39,916 nucleotides of DNA from Candidatus Sulfotelmatobacter sp. (GTDB lineage Bacteria; Eisenbacteria; RBG-16-71-46), in NCBI GenBank assembly GCA_035498555.1, contig DATKAB010000025.1, forward strand, positions 1 through 39,916, in the 5' to 3' direction. This document shows positions 33,995 through 39,916 of the stretch, one piece after another. The number at the start of each line of letters is the position of its first letter. Position 1 is the first letter of the stretch. The notes under the pieces were generated by a model. That model saw only the letters and a list, made by a program, of their open reading frames with translations. It was not told the DNA's origin and made no database searches. The translations under genes were made by a program, and so were the position numbers.

Positions 33995-36900
33995 TCAAGT
34001 CTTGACCTCCGGATGCCGCGCTCGGGCCCGCACCGCGGCGCGATGAGCGCTGATGCCGTTGGGCGCGCGCGGCGTTTCGCGTGGGGAGAGGCCGGCCGCG
34101 CCTTCGGCGGATCTTCCGGCAACCTGCTCGCGCCGCCACGCGTGCGGCGCCGGCGACGGCGCTGAGCCATCGAGCGCGATCACGCGCTCGACGTTGAGCG
34201 TGACGGCGTCGAGCGCCTCTTCGACGCGCCCCTCGAGCCGCACCACGCTGGCTCGGGCCGCCGGCCCCCATGCGCGATAGGCCGAGGTGAACAGGGTGCC
34301 CTCGGCGAGCCCGCTCGCGTCGGCGATGGTCGCGAACAGCATCGGCTCGCCGCGCCTGGTCTCGACCCGGCGATAGGCGCAGGTGAGCCCGACCAGCGCC
34401 ACGCGCTCGCCGACGCGCCGCGGCAGCTCGGCGCACGCGACCGCGCCGCGCCGCGCCGCTTCGAGCTCGGGTGAATCGAGCGGATGGGCGCTGAACCACA
34501 GTCCGGTCGCGCGCGCCTCGCCGCGCGCCCGCTCGAAGCGATCGAATTCCGGCAGCGACGGCACCGGCGCCGGCGCGACCGGGGGCGGCGCCAGCTCGTC
34601 GCCGCCGGGCACCACGAGCACCGGCGTGCGTGGCGCGAGACGCGCCACGGCCGGCGCGCTCACGCGGGCTTCGAGCAGCAACGTCGGCCGCGAACGCCCG
34701 AGCGCATCGAGCGCTCCGGCCAGGATCAACGACTCGACTTCGGGCGGCGTGGGCCGCACGCGTTCGAGGAAGTCGGCGAGGTTCGAGAAGCGCCGCTCTG
34801 CCCGCGCGTGCAGGATCCGCGCTCCGGTGGTCTCGGCGAGCCCGAACACGCGCGACAGTCCGACGCGCACGGCGCGAGCCGAGACGCGAGCGGCGGCGGG
34901 CCTCGCGTCCAGAGACTCCGCCGCCGCGCCCTCCGGTGCGGGGTCCGCGGCATCCTCCAGGGTCGCGTCCCACTGCGAGCGCTCGACGCACGGGGCGAGG
35001 AAGCCCACGCCGGCGCGGCGCAGGTCCTCGACGTGCACCCAGGTCGGATACATGCCGGCGTGGTGATTGAGGATCCCGACCGCGTATTCGACCGGGAAGT
35101 GCGTCTTGAGATACGCGCTCTGCCACCCGAGCACGCCGTAGCCGGCCGCGTGCGCCTTGCAGAACGCGTAGGCCGCGAAGCGGGTCAGCTCGCACCACAC
35201 CGCGCGCGCGGTCGCGCCGTCGACGCCGGCGCGCGCCGCCTGCGCCACGAAGCCGCGCTCGAGTGCCCGGAACTCCTCGTCGCCGCGCGCCGCGGCAATC
35301 GCGCGACGCAGCTCGTCGCCGGCGGCCAGCGGCAACCCGGTGAGCGCGGCGGCGACGCGCATCACGTCCTCTTCGTAGAGCATCACGCCGAGCGTGTCGG
35401 ACAGCACCGGCTCGAGCCGCGGGTGGAGACATGACACGGCTTCGAGCCCGCGCCGGCGACGGCAGTAGGCGGTCTTCATGCCGGACTCGGCCGGCCCGGG
35501 ACGCACGAGCGCCACCGCCGCGATGGTGTCGTCGAGCGTTCGGCAGCCGAGCATGCGCAGCAGATGGCGCATGGCCGGCGACTCGAGCTGGAAGCAGTTG
35601 AGCGTGTCGCCGGCGGCGAGCCGCGCGGCGGTGGCGGGATCGTCTTCGGGGATCGTGTCGAGCGAGAGCAGTGTCGGCGGGACGGCGGAGCCGGAGGCCG
35701 ACCGGGAGGTACGGTTGCCGGCTCCATCCGGTCGCCGGCTGCCCTCGCCGCGCCCAGCGCCGGACATCCCTGTCCGGCTTCTCCTCGGCGCGGAGCCCTC
35801 CCGGTCGGCCTCCCGCTCCGCCGCCCCGGCCGCCCGCCGGGTCACCAGCTCGACGCACTCGCCGAGGGTGCTCAGGCAGCGGTTGCCGAGCAGATCCATC
35901 TTCACCAGCCCGAGCGCTTCGATCGCGCGCATCTCGAACTGCGTCACCACCAGGTTCTTGGCGGCGCGCTCGAGCGGCACGTAGTAGGTGAGCTCGCGGT
36001 CGGCGATCACCAGGCCGCCCGAATGCACCGAGAGATGCCGGGGCGCGCCCGACAGGCGCTCGGCGAGCTTCAGCGCCTCGGGCAGCGGCGCTTCGCGCCA
36101 GTCGACGAAGCGCGCGTCGGGTGTCGCCAGCAGCTGATCGAGGTACGGCGGCTCCATCTCGCGCGGCACGCGGCGCGCGAGGGCGTTGACGCGCGGGTTG
36201 GAGAGCCCCAGCGCCTTGGCGGTCTCGCGGAACGCCGAGCGGGCACCGAGCGTCGAGTGCGTGCAGATCATCGCCACGCGGTCGTGGCCGTAGGTGTCGT
36301 AGACGTGCTCGATCACCTCGTCGCGCCGCTTCCAGCACAGATCGATGTCGAGATCGGGGCAGTCGCGCCGCGCCGGGTGCAGGAAGCGCTCGAAGTAGAG
36401 CCCGTAGCGCATCGGGTCGACGTTGGTGATGCCGAGTGCGTAGGCGACGAGCGAGCTGGCGCCCGACCCGCGCCCGACGGTCGGAATGTTCTTCGACCGC
36501 GCGTACCCGACGATCTCGGCGACCAGCAGGAAATAGTCGGTGAAGCCCATCCGTTCGATGATCTCGAGCTCTTCGCCGAGGCGCGGTCGCGCGTCGTGAT
36601 AGCGGCGGCGTGAGCCGGCGTCGGCGCCGGTCGCCCGCACGCCGTAGCGGCGGCGCAGTCCCTCGGTGACGAGGCGCTCGAGATGGGCTGTTCCTGTCAT
36701 GCCGTCCGGCAGCGGCGCCCGCGGGAGGATCGGCGTGCCGAGCTCGAGCTCGAGCCGGCAGCGTGCGACCAGCGCCACGTTGTTCGCGAGCGCGGCGGTG
36801 GCGGCTTCGGGTCGCCCGGCCGCCCCGCACACCGCGCGCACGCGGCGCGTCCACTCGAGCGGCGAAGCCAGCCACGCTTCACGCGCCGCGAACGCCGCCG

Positions 36901-37585
36901 GCGGCATGCGCTCGCGCAGCTCGCCGGCCGCGGCGGTCACAGCGATCGCGTGCAGCTCGTGATCGCGCGGCTCGATCGCCACCACGTCGCCGGTCGCCAC
37001 CAGCGGAATGCCGAGCGCGATCGCGGCATCGAGCCGCTCGGCGAGCCGCGTGCGTTCCGCCGGCAGGCCGCGGATGCCGAGCCACAGCCCGCCGTCGCGC
37101 GGGCGCGGGCCCGACCCGGGCCCGGCGGGCGCCGCGCCGAACGCCGCCGGCACGCCCGCCGCCTGAAGCGAGGCGGCGAGCCCCGGCGATTCGACGATCA
37201 GGTGGAGCCCGGCGTGGAATTGCGCGAGCCCGGCGACCAGGTCGAATTCCGGATCGAGCATGCGCGCGGTGATCAGCGCGCACAGGTTGGCGTAGCCGCG
37301 CCGATCGATGGCGAGCAGCAGCGCGCCCGGGCCCGTGCCGGCGGCCGCGCCACCGCGGGCGCCCTGGGCGGCGCGCGCCGAGAGCTCGACGCCGAGCAGC
37401 GGTTTCAGTCCCTCGGTGTGCGCCGCGCGCCAGAAGCGGATCGCGAGGTAGAGATTGTCGCGGTCGGTGAGCGCGAGCGAGTCGTAGCCCTGCTCGAGCG
37501 CCCGGGCGATCAGCGCCTCGGGCGCCGCGGTGCCATACAGCAGCGAGCCGTGCGAGCGGACGCGCAGCGGAACGAAGGCGCTCAC
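33995..37585 (-). CDS. DnaE-type DNA polymerase III alpha subunit, probably error-prone
   Basis: A 1196-residue C-family polymerase. The catalytic aspartates are present: PDLDIDLCWKRRDEV (Asp413, Asp415) and LVKMDLLGN (Asp564). Other family blocks are FQLESPAMRHLL, ALVRPGPAESGMK, MLYEEDVMRVAAALTG and FAAYAFCKAHAAGYG. The C-terminal OB region is VALVGLTCAYRRVETRRG. The N-terminal PHP domain is degenerate: LRVRSHGSLLYGT replaces the usual HxH and LTDRDNLY replaces TDHGN. This suggests a second, translesion-type DnaE rather than the replicative one, in line with the Y-family polymerase gene upstream on the same strand. About residues 587-636 are a low-complexity insert encoded by an inverted-repeat element (35678-35828). 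GTG 37585 has GGAG 6 nt upstream. Confidence 0.9.
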   Translation of the reverse strand: MSAFVPLRVRSHGSLLYGTAAPEALIARALEQGYDSLALTDRDNLYLAIRFWRAAHTEGLKPLLGVELSARAAQGARGGAAAGTGPGALLLAIDRRGYANLCALITARMLDPEFDLVAGLAQFHAGLHLIVESPGLAASLQAAGVPAAFGAAPAGPGSGPRPRDGGLWLGIRGLPAERTRLAERLDAAIALGIPLVATGDVVAIEPRDHELHAIAVTAAAGELRERMPPAAFAAREAWLASPLEWTRRVRAVCGAAGRPEAATAALANNVALVARCRLELELGTPILPRAPLPDGMTGTAHLERLVTEGLRRRYGVRATGADAGSRRRYHDARPRLGEELEIIERMGFTDYFLLVAEIVGYARSKNIPTVGRGSGASSLVAYALGITNVDPMRYGLYFERFLHPARRDCPDLDIDLCWKRRDEVIEHVYDTYGHDRVAMICTHSTLGARSAFRETAKALGLSNPRVNALARRVPREMEPPYLDQLLATPDARFVDWREAPLPEALKLAERLSGAPRHLSVHSGGLVIADRELTYYVPLERAAKNLVVTQFEMRAIEALGLVKMDLLGNRCLSTLGECVELVTRRAAGAAEREADREGSAPRRSRTGMSGAGRGEGSRRPDGAGNRTSRSASGSAVPPTLLSLDTIPEDDPATAARLAAGDTLNCFQLESPAMRHLLRMLGCRTLDDTIAAVALVRPGPAESGMKTAYCRRRRGLEAVSCLHPRLEPVLSDTLGVMLYEEDVMRVAAALTGLPLAAGDELRRAIAAARGDEEFRALERGFVAQAARAGVDGATARAVWCELTRFAAYAFCKAHAAGYGVLGWQSAYLKTHFPVEYAVGILNHHAGMYPTWVHVEDLRRAGVGFLAPCVERSQWDATLEDAADPAPEGAAAESLDARPAAARVSARAVRVGLSRVFGLAETTGARILHARAERRFSNLADFLERVRPTPPEVESLILAGALDALGRSRPTLLLEARVSAPAVARLAPRTPVLVVPGGDELAPPPVAPAPVPSLPEFDRFERARGEARATGLWFSAHPLDSPELEAARRGAVACAELPRRVGERVALVGLTCAYRRVETRRGEPMLFATIADASGLAEGTLFTSAYRAWGPAARASVVRLEGRVEEALDAVTLNVERVIALDGSAPSPAPHAWRREQVAGRSAEGAAGLSPRETPRAPNGISAHRAAVRARARHPEVKT
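35678..35828. repeat. Palindromic insertion-like element inside the DnaE gene
   Basis: Inverted repeats 35684-35709 and 35797-35822 match over 26 nt with one mismatch (35692/35814). Pairing continues outward through 35678/35828 with one more mismatch. An internal perfect 8-bp hairpin, GCCGGACA-TCCC-TGTCCGGC, lies at 35759-35778. The sequence between the repeats is unlike the family consensus when translated (arginine, serine, glycine-rich). The unit 35683-35823 is 141 nt, so it adds 47 codons without shifting the frame. No second copy was seen in the window. It resembles palindromic elements tolerated in proteins elsewhere (for example Rickettsia RPEs), but no relationship is claimed. Confidence 0.75.
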
Positions 37586-37610
37586 GCGGCGCTCCGCGGC
37601 GCGCGCGACG

Positions 37611-38309
37611 TCAGCCGGCGGGGTGGGGGCCGAAGCTCGGCAGCGACTCGCGGCCGCTGGAGCGCAGCATCACGTGCGGCAGCACGCCGGCCTCGAAGTA
37701 CTCGGGGCGCAGGATGCGATCGAGCAGGCGCTGGCCCCACAGTTCCTGATCGGGCGTCAGCTCGGGATCGTCGCCGGCGAAACGGAAGGTGCAGACCGCG
37801 AGATCCGCGCCCTCCATCCAGCCCACCACCAGGCACTGGTTGGTGCCGTCGCTGTCGGCGATGCGCACCCACAGGATCGCCAGATCGAAATCGCCGAGAT
37901 GGCGGTGCGATTCGCGCGACACCTGTGGATCGTCGAAGCCCATCGCCTGGCGCAGCGCCAGCTCGGGCGGCGTGCTGGGCGGGAAGCGGTTGCTCACCAT
38001 CGCCGCGTTCGGCACGACGAGCATCGGCGGCGCGAACGCGGGCTCCTGCGCGAGCGCGAAGCACAGCGCTTCGGCGCGATGCCGCGGCTGAAGCAACGGC
38101 GCTCGCCGCCCGAGCAGATCGAGGCCGAGCAGCACGATCAGCACGGCGAACACGAACGGCGCCGCCACCAGCGCCACCTGCAGCGCCGGCCCGAACGAGC
38201 GCTGCACGCGCCGCTCGACGGCTCCGGCGGTGACCGGCGAGGTGAACAGCCGCACCAGCAACGGCGGGCGCCGCGGCGGGGAGGGCGCGGGCGAGACCGG
38301 CGGACTCAT
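37611..38309 (-). CDS. Single-helix membrane protein of unknown function
   Basis: A 232-residue protein with a proline-rich cytoplasmic N-terminus (MSPPVSPAPSPPRRPP), one strong helix (PALQVALVAAPFVFAVLIVLLGLDLLG) and a C-terminal soluble domain containing FDLAILWVRIADSDGTNQCL and VVGWMEGADLAVCTFRFAGD. I recognise no family. It is 25 nt upstream of the DnaE gene and presumably co-transcribed. An alternative, overlapping open frame on the same strand is arginine/alanine-rich and looks like shadow. The call rests on amino-acid composition and position. Confidence 0.65.
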   Translation of the reverse strand: MSPPVSPAPSPPRRPPLLVRLFTSPVTAGAVERRVQRSFGPALQVALVAAPFVFAVLIVLLGLDLLGRRAPLLQPRHRAEALCFALAQEPAFAPPMLVVPNAAMVSNRFPPSTPPELALRQAMGFDDPQVSRESHRHLGDFDLAILWVRIADSDGTNQCLVVGWMEGADLAVCTFRFAGDDPELTPDQELWGQRLLDRILRPEYFEAGVLPHVMLRSSGRESLPSFGPHPAG

Positions 38310-38369
38310 GGTCTTCCGTTATCGGCAGGATGCGCACGGGCCGTGAGAGCTGCTCGTTCGAGCCCCGTG

Positions 38370-38387
38370 GCGGGCGCCCACGCCCGC
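38370..38387 (-). terminator. Hairpin downstream of the VOC gene
   Basis: A 7-bp stem, GCGGGCG (38370-38376) with CGCCCGC (38381-38387), loop CCCA, lies 15 nt past the VOC stop on the minus strand, without a T-tract. It may limit read-through into the membrane-protein and DnaE genes. Confidence 0.35.
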
Positions 38388-38402
38388 TCACCCGCCGCAT
38401 GC

Positions 38403-38759
38403 TCACTTCTCCTCGATCAGGCCGATCGTGTTGCCGGACGGGTCGAGCACCTCGGCCACCCGCGTGCCCTCGCCAACCCCCATCGGCGCCTGCTTCGGCT
38501 TCGCGCCGATCGAGAGCATCCGCGACCACTCGGCGTCGAGATCGGCGACTTTCCAGTACGACACGCCGCCCTTGTCTCCCACACGATGCTTGTCATCCTC
38601 GGGATGGATGCCGAGCTCGAAGCCGTCGACGTCGAAGCCGACGTAGAACGGCTCGTCGAAGTAGGGCTGGATCCCGAGCCACTCGGAATACCAGCGCCTG
38701 GCGCTCGCGAGGTCGCTGACCGGATAGATCGCGCTGCGAAGTCGAAGGCGATGGGGCAT
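38403..38759 (-). CDS. VOC-superfamily (glyoxalase/dioxygenase-like) protein
   Basis: A 118-residue protein of the vicinal-oxygen-chelate fold: RLRSAIYPVSDLASARRWYS and the WLGIQPYFDEPFYVGFDVDG first half, then GVSYWKVADLDAEWSRMLSI, VAEVLDPSGNTIGLIEEK as the second beta-alpha-beta-beta-beta unit. Single-domain VOC proteins act as dimers in glyoxalase, antibiotic-resistance or dioxygenase reactions; which applies here is unknown. AGGAG lies 6 nt before ATG 38759. It lies between the Y-family polymerase and the DnaE genes, an unusual location for a small metabolic enzyme. Confidence 0.87.
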   Translation of the reverse strand: MPHRLRLRSAIYPVSDLASARRWYSEWLGIQPYFDEPFYVGFDVDGFELGIHPEDDKHRVGDKGGVSYWKVADLDAEWSRMLSIGAKPKQAPMGVGEGTRVAEVLDPSGNTIGLIEEK

Positions 38760-38821
38760 GACGAGCTCCTTTCGATGGTGAACGCGGCCGGTGCCGCGGA
38801 TCGAACGCCGCTTCCGCGGCG

Positions 38822-39916
38822 CTACTTGGTCAACGACGGGGTGCGCAGCACGAAACCATGGCGATCCTCGGTGAGCCTGCCCTTGAGATGGAGCGCGCGG
38901 CCCGAGACCAGCACGCCGTGGCCGTAGGCGCCACGCACGCGATCGAAGGCGCGGTAGAGCGCGGCGCGGCGGCCGGCCTCGCGCTCGTCGAAGAGTGCCC
39001 CCTGCTCGCCCGACGCCGGCACGAAGTTGGAGAGCGTGATGCCCAGCGCATGCAGCGCCACGCGCCGCGTGAACAGCTTGCGCATCAGCGCGAGCGCCGT
39101 CTCGAGCACCACCGGATCGGCTTCCGACGGCGAGCGCAGCGAGCGTTCCTGCTCGGCGCCCTCGCCGTCCTGGTAGCGCAGCCGCACGCCGATGGTGCGC
39201 GCCTTGAGGCCGAGCTCGCGCGCGGCGTGGCAGGCGCGACCGACCAGGTACTCGATCATGCCGTCGAGCACCGTGGCTTCGGCGGTGTCGCGGTGGAACG
39301 AGGTCTCGCGCGAGATCGAGAGCGGAATCTCGCGCACCGTGACCGGCGCCGTGTCGCGCCCGCGGCAGCGCTCGTAGAGCAGGCGGCCGGCCACGCCGAA
39401 CAGCGCCTCGAGCGTTTCGACCGGCAGGGCGCGCAGCGCGCCGATGGTGAGCAGGTTCATCGAGCGCAGCGTCTTCGCGTGCGCGTGGCCGACGCCGGCG
39501 AGCTGCTCGATCGGCCGCTCGCACAGGAAGGCGTCGGCGTCTTCGGCCGCGATCCGCGCGAGGCCGGCGGGCTTCACGGTCTTGCCGATCAGCTTCGCCA
39601 GCATGCGATTCGGGCCGATGCCGCAGGTCACGGTGAGCCCGGTCTCTTCGCGGATCGCTTCTTTCAGCGCGCGCGCCGCCGCCATCACGTCGCCGTGCAG
39701 GCGCTCGGTGCCCGAGAGATCGCAATAGGCTTCGTCGAGATAGGTCTCTACCGCCGGCGAAAGATCGCGGCAGTGCGCGAAAATCACCTCGGCAAAGCAA
39801 CGATAGATCTGTGCGTGGCCATCGAGGATCACGGCCTGAGGGCAGCGGCGCTTCGCTTCGGTGAGCGTCATGCCGGCCTTGAGCCCGAAGCGGCGCGCCT
39901 CGTACGAACACGACGC
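38822..39916 (-). CDS. dinB: Y-family DNA polymerase (DinB / Pol IV-like), 5' end cut by window
   Basis: A translesion polymerase reading from the window edge: SCSYEARRFGLKAGMTLTEA is the normal continuation of the missing fingers/palm start, so the true N-terminus (with the first catalytic Asp) lies beyond 39916. Present are YLDEAYCDLSG with the Asp-Glu catalytic pair, CGIGPNRMLAKLIGKTVKPAG, LAGVGHAHAKTLRSM (helix-hairpin-helix) and the little-finger region starting REIPLSISRETSFHRD. Near the C-terminus QGALFDE fits a beta-clamp-binding pentapeptide (QxxLF). About 364 residues are visible. It precedes the VOC, membrane-protein and DnaE genes on the same strand. Confidence 0.92.
   Translation of the reverse strand, partial: ASCSYEARRFGLKAGMTLTEAKRRCPQAVILDGHAQIYRCFAEVIFAHCRDLSPAVETYLDEAYCDLSGTERLHGDVMAAARALKEAIREETGLTVTCGIGPNRMLAKLIGKTVKPAGLARIAAEDADAFLCERPIEQLAGVGHAHAKTLRSMNLLTIGALRALPVETLEALFGVAGRLLYERCRGRDTAPVTVREIPLSISRETSFHRDTAEATVLDGMIEYLVGRACHAARELGLKARTIGVRLRYQDGEGAEQERSLRSPSEADPVVLETALALMRKLFTRRVALHALGITLSNFVPASGEQGALFDEREAGRRAALYRAFDRVRGAYGHGVLVSGRALHLKGRLTEDRHGFVLRTPSLTK

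Follow-up and report, generated by a model that had tools for sequence, protein, structure and literature searches.

An in-frame palindrome in a dnaE gene and a dispersed repeat family with CsrA-type hairpin loops

A palindromic element is inserted in frame in the second dnaE gene of Candidatus Sulfotelmatobacter sp. (Eisenbacteria; assembly GCA_035498555.1), and it is absent from most DnaE homologues of the same family. The best explanation, to which we give about an even chance of being correct, is that the element is one copy of a dispersed, mobile, RPE-like palindrome that would be transcribed into a structured RNA, most likely a ligand of CsrA. The window analyzed here is the whole 39,916-nt stretch of contig DATKAB010000025.1, and its features are as follows.

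33998–37585, minus strand: host gene, a DnaE-type DNA polymerase III alpha subunit (Pfam, TIGR00594), the second dnaE of the genome.
35678–35828, minus strand: whole element, in frame, in the palm-finger linker (residues 586–636); its RNA-like strand is probably the dnaE sense strand.
35797–35828, minus strand: arm 1 (5′ on the gene strand), copy-specific, pairing with arm 2.
35678–35709, minus strand: arm 2 (3′ on the gene strand), with 30 of its 32 positions complementary to arm 1.
35710–35796, minus strand: core, the part that recurs between copies, with homology to the copy on contig C46 of the same genome (78% over query positions 32–135).
35759–35778, minus strand: hairpin h2, GCCGGAC-AGGGAU-GUCCGGC, an exact C-ANGGAX-G hexaloop.
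35717–35739, minus strand: hairpin h1, GCCGGCGACCGGAUGGAGCCGGC, whose loop holds GGA in a degenerate motif.

The host protein has PHP, DNA_pol3_alpha, DNA_pol3_finger, and HHH_6 domains in Pfam and matches TIGR00594 above the cut-off; the other dnaE of the genome, on contig C81, is more ordinary. The reading of the host gene (P0001, 1196 aa, minus strand) is open throughout the element, with LVKMDLLGN just before it and SLDTIPEDDP after it. The initial annotation had described 26-nt inverted repeats with one mismatch, pairing outward to 35678/35828, and an internal 8-bp hairpin. All three were recovered, the repeats at 35684–35709 and 35797–35822 with 87 nt between the arms, the outward pairing as arms of 32 nt each (94% complementary), and the hairpin at 35759–35766/35771–35778. 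Its frame-preserving unit of 141 nt was right as to the open frame but not as to the length, the palindrome being 151 nt. The RNA fold of these 151 nt on the gene strand, which had been suggested as a check, gave −128.3 kcal/mol compared with −83.8 ± 4.5 for shuffled sequences (z = −9.99), and none of 200 dinucleotide shuffles folded as well. The palindrome is genuine, and chance falls far short of explaining it. Among the neighboring ORFs, that at 38403–39911 shows a weak match to a Glyoxalase-superfamily domain in its C-terminal part, and that at 37582–38529 had no match in Pfam or NCBIfam.

The insertion was recognized by comparison with homologues (genomes are numbered, G000 being that of the window). 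As initially placed, it lies before SLDTIPEDDP and adds about 50 residues, which are missing from most same-family DnaE homologues; the linker of the family is usually 12–20 residues long (G003, G004, G007, G008, G010, G012, G013, and G014). After subtraction of the extra residues, the linker has 13–14 residues, compared with 12–13 in the homologues without an insertion. DnaE thus tolerates about 50 extra residues next to the palm domain. Two other genomes, G017 and G019, have their own insertions in the same linker, that of G019 consisting of two copies in opposite orientation. A second DnaE linker (about residues 880–905 of P0001) holds copies in G006, G007, G010, G014, and G008, the last of which was identified by reading, with a covariance-model match at G093:C165 (the G093 contig coordinates are those of G008). 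Copies were also found at the interdomain linker, or the equivalent place, of an ArgH-acetyltransferase fusion in three genera (G000, G007, and G008; L084 1496–1617 (G000:C71), L120, and L181). The copies in these two kinds of protein indicate that linkers are repeated landing places. As is characteristic of RPE-type insertions, the element stands in frame and is absent from homologues.

A BLAST search using the window element as the query found one other clear copy in the same genome, which is intergenic and has different arms (C46:21754–21855), and no comparable second copy of the window arms in that genome. The 26-nt repeat had been suggested as the query for finding other copies, but no other copy has these arms, and the core between them is the common part. 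A genome search with the 26-nt repeat would therefore fail despite a real element. With the DnaE insertion of G017 as the query, 11 more copies were found, not counting a match of the query to its own arm. When 12 copies were aligned, they showed a three-way junction in which every helix covaries strongly; both sides had changed in 13 of the 18 pairs of the outer helix, and the covariation over the whole structure was 0.392, against 0.127 ± 0.016 for shuffled and at most 0.127 for slid alignments. The covariance model R2, whose calibration is rough and which was applied to assemblies that are MAGs, detected about 119 copies, spread over 16 of the 20 family genomes, and gave no match in 27 genomes from elsewhere in the class. 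It does not detect the window copy, because the h2 of this copy is longer, and it detects the C46 copy weakly (E 0.001). The window copy probably belongs to the family, as judged from its 78% identity to the C46 copy and an orientation-consistent local similarity. The variable length of the linker among homologues would agree with a native, lineage-specific DnaE loop whose palindromic coding is accidental, but the core is repeated elsewhere in the genome, the fold has a z of about −10, and the family-wide model finds matches. Such a loop is hardly credible, being refuted by the family and by the other copy, that on C46. The initial idea of a small, non-autonomous, RPE-like element accepted as a loop agrees with the homologues lacking the insertion and with the copies elsewhere in this genome and its relatives.

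Beyond the Eisenbacteria, a pattern derived from the core matched sequences of many Marinobacter, of Planctomycetes, and of one Krumholzibacteriota MAG, as confirmed with R2. Four Planctomycete MAGs have 46, 57, 129, and 16 copies. The counts in Marinobacter, about 1–13 significant R2 matches per genome, are too low because the model is distant. No match up to an E of 1 was found in Rfam with the 12 loci searched, and a search of the open-access literature for the core sequence returned unrelated papers only; the repeat family is apparently undescribed, in the sense of being absent from Rfam and the open-access literature searched. By a simple ORF test with a GC3 rule, 79 of 120 copies were intergenic, and many copies lie between convergent genes. 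Orientation relative to tandem genes displayed no clear bias under a longest-ORF rule (24 sense and 17 antisense). Inverted pairs, in which an R2 plus match is followed by a minus match with starts about 170–240 nt apart, are frequent (G017 C124 and C285; G013 C61 and C73; G001 C17; G016 C394 and C607; G019 C113). At two loci of G001, L090 (G001:C23) and L177 (G001:C7), an arm, together with part of the core, is tandemly repeated beside the element, the repeats being a 71-nt unit present three times and an array of about 41-nt units around the 3′ arm.

Each copy consists of a conserved three-way-junction core of 55–90 nt flanked by two arms. In the R2 orientation, the order is arm, ACG(C/T)TC, h1 (loop CATCC), CTCnCTnnnCG, long h2 (loop (C)ATCC(N)TGG), CGACTCC, and arm. 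The arms of Eisenbacteria and Marinobacter are copy-specific yet near-perfectly complementary: those of Eisenbacteria match at a median of 29 positions, and those of Marinobacter are mostly 25–31 nt long and perfect in 49 of 109 copies. At arm positions 20–24 in Marinobacter, the identity between copies is 0.33 and the pairing within a copy 0.89, and in the subfamilies of G007 and G019 the between-copy arm identity drops to chance while pairing continues. Marinobacter cores that differ by less than 2% and stand at different sites have a median arm difference of 0.47; for orthologous copies at one site, the core divergence is 2.2% and the arms differ by 5%. The arms are therefore off the clock of the core. 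Either the arms are renewed at transposition or later, or the cores are homogenized between old sites. In Planctomycetes the outer arms are largely common to the copies, and private arms are thus not universal. In the literature searched, we found no element family with both a conserved core and arms that are private to each copy and perfectly paired.

The private arms bear on the alternative of a selfish MITE-like palindrome, lacking RNA function, whose arms are ordinary terminal inverted repeats and whose in-frame copies are merely tolerated. The terminal inverted repeats of a MITE family are common to its copies. The element is small, dispersed, non-coding, mostly intergenic, and tolerated in linkers, as a MITE would be; however, no terminal inverted repeats conserved between copies were found in Eisenbacteria or Marinobacter, the Marinobacter arms are unrelated between copies even at the small core divergence given above, and the asymmetry of the arm mismatches described below indicates strand-specific folding. 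We consider this alternative improbable.

Gain and loss were followed at one 5′ leader site in 39 Marinobacter genomes, for which 30 loci were read. The site is plainly empty in six of them (G051, G061, G062, G063, G066, and G075), and further loci, including that of G074, have different short sequences and no element. One element, type A, is present at eight loci; its arms show paired changes (A-T to T-A and A-T to G-C), and seven of the eight stems are perfect. Seven loci have another element with other arms at a neighboring position, and one locus has both elements. In G068 and G084 the arms are those of type A and the core is inverted, which implies recombination or strand switching between the arms. 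The presence of both core orientations in the same 5′ leader counts against the best explanation, as does the lack of a clear orientation bias relative to tandem genes. A target-site duplication was looked for, and a possible CCAG repeat was seen at one Marinobacter site only. In G069 (L344), the followed site has a small hairpin, GCAAGGTAAGC/GCTTACTTGC, without the core, which is perhaps a relic or a precursor. In the second element at the site in G085 (L341), the h2 stem has changed from GCC/GGC to GCAGC/GCTGC, a change of several paired bases with the CATCCATG loop unchanged.

Arms and core alike are absent from the empty alleles, and the arms are therefore not native sequence at this site. 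This speaks against both forms of a model in which the arms are target sequence, that is, insertion of the core into pre-existing palindromes such as terminators and inverted duplication of the target. The model would account for common inner arms that end sharply while the complementarity runs on, and for the many copies between convergent genes, but the arm length is uniform (25–31 nt in most of the 109 copies) and the arms are common to orthologous copies. We regard it as very improbable.

The mismatches in the arms indicate which strand folds. In RNA, as in a folded strand of DNA, G.U pairs well and A.C does not; on the other strand the roles are swapped. In the model orientation, A.C exceeded G.T in Eisenbacteria (138 vs 45, as per-genome sums), Marinobacter (52 vs 4), and Planctomycetes (22 vs 7). 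The excess of A.C means that G.U is tolerated only opposite to the R2 orientation, and hence that the opposite strand folds. For the window copy, the mismatch asymmetry and the loop motif point to the dnaE sense strand. A folded single DNA strand would give the same asymmetry, and a mutational strand bias could contribute to it.

The h1 loops on the folding strand are CAGGAUG (60 copies), CAGGAAG (9), CAGGACG (7), CAGGAGG (5), and CAGGGAUG (8), and GGA is present in h1 of 112 and in h2 of 107 of 116 copies. In Marinobacter, h1, which was not fixed by the search, reads CANGGANG in 107 of 109 copies, with both N positions free; h2 was set by the search pattern there and is not independent evidence. 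The window h2 has the exact motif, C-AGGGAU-G closed by a 7-bp stem, and the h2 of Planctomycetes is often without GGA. The repeat of CsrB is CAGGA(U/A/C)G (PMC7652899), and the RsmZ/RsmE site is an A(N)GGAX loop on a C-G closing pair, in which N is optional and N and X vary (PMC4005645). The loops of the element, CAGGAXG or CANGGAXG, match this CsrA/RsmE site, more weakly in the h2 of Planctomycetes, and may bind CsrA. The two loop matches are not independent if one of the hairpins h1 and h2 derives from the other. CsrA is encoded in 18 of the 20 family genomes, with two genes in G000. It is also encoded in every member of a second set of 13 genomes, among which 11 gave significant matches to the model. 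CsrA was not found in two element-bearing genomes, G005 (82% complete) and G010 (96% complete). Element-free relatives (G003, G004, G012, and G018) have CsrA too, so that CsrA in the host is necessary but not sufficient, and with CsrA in nearly all family genomes, correlating its presence with that of the element is not informative. The Planctomycete MAGs with 16–129 copies (G087–G090) have three to four csrA genes each.

The element could instead be a REP/REPIN-like non-autonomous unit that a Y1 (TnpA_REP-like) or another hairpin-recognizing transposase moves in single-stranded DNA form, with the loops serving as transposase contacts unrelated to CsrA. Such a unit would share the hairpin architecture, the strand-specific folding signal, the dispersal, the presence and absence at sites, and the convergent pairs like those of BIMEs, and 19 of the 20 family genomes have a Y1_Tnp gene. 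However, genomes without the element also have Y1_Tnp, and near 12 Y1_Tnp genes there was one weak element match only (E 0.012), leaving a RAYT link unsupported. Moreover, no GTAG/CGTC foot was recognized at the element ends, and the loop consensus is that of a characterized RNA–protein site in both length variants. We judge movement as single-stranded DNA to be rather unlikely; it fits nearly as well as the RNA reading, which is ranked above it because the loops match the RsmE site precisely in each of its two length variants.

Known systems resemble the element in part. REP/REPIN units with RAYT share the intergenic hairpins, inverted pairs, and high copy number, but REP units are 20–40 bp, which the element is not, and the element has no transposase beside its copies and arms that vary by copy. 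RPEs are palindromic, about 150 bp long, dispersed, and in frame inside unrelated protein genes (PMC10969869). By this description the element is likewise about 150 bp, palindromic, dispersed, and in frame in protein genes, but it occurs in different phyla, its copies are mostly intergenic with copy-specific arms and a conserved core, and it has strand-specific RNA-like folding and CsrA-type loops. The CsrB and RsmZ sRNAs have the same CAGGAXG or CANGGAXG loops on a C-G closing pair (PMC7652899, PMC4005645), but they are single-locus RNAs with many sites, whereas the element has dispersed copies with two predicted sites each and a long variable stem. Correia/NEMIS and ERIC MITEs are also long hairpins, which occur in transcripts and affect them, and Correia can invert (PMC10969869); unlike in the element, their terminal repeats are conserved between copies, and no sequence relation was found in Rfam. 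Template switching can keep perfect RNA hairpin stems through paired changes (PMC8794818), but it is a mutation mechanism, not an element, and is only suggested for the element here.

Taken as a whole, the interpretation in the initial annotation is partly supported; what it did not foresee is that the folding signal is strand-specific and RNA-like, that the loops are of the CsrA type, and that copies occur in several phyla. We propose that the unit of spread, moved by a putative mobilizing enzyme, would be two long complementary arms around the conserved three-way-junction core; one copy has inserted in frame into the flexible DnaE linker. One strand, here the dnaE sense strand, would fold as an RNA with a long stem and two short hairpins, with the CsrA/RsmE docking sequence C-A(N)GGAX-G displayed in the loops of both. 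Most likely, transcripts with the element would bind CsrA and thereby either titrate it or link the host transcript with the Csr network, and in dnaE the ribosome would translate through the element to give a surface loop. The arms would need complementarity alone and could diverge freely, their pairing being kept by selection, by template switching in the hairpin, or by both.

The element is a natural experiment on the upkeep of perfect stems by selection versus template switching. If its loops bind CsrA, it would be a direct link between a repeat element and a global post-transcriptional regulator in many bacteria, and culturable Marinobacter among the hosts make this directly testable. More tentatively, we suggest a cross-phylum class of mobile structured RNAs that are dispersed CsrA sponges on private stems, even inside ORFs. 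If this is true, a genome would contain from tens to more than 100 CsrA sponges, and the element load would tune the Csr network.
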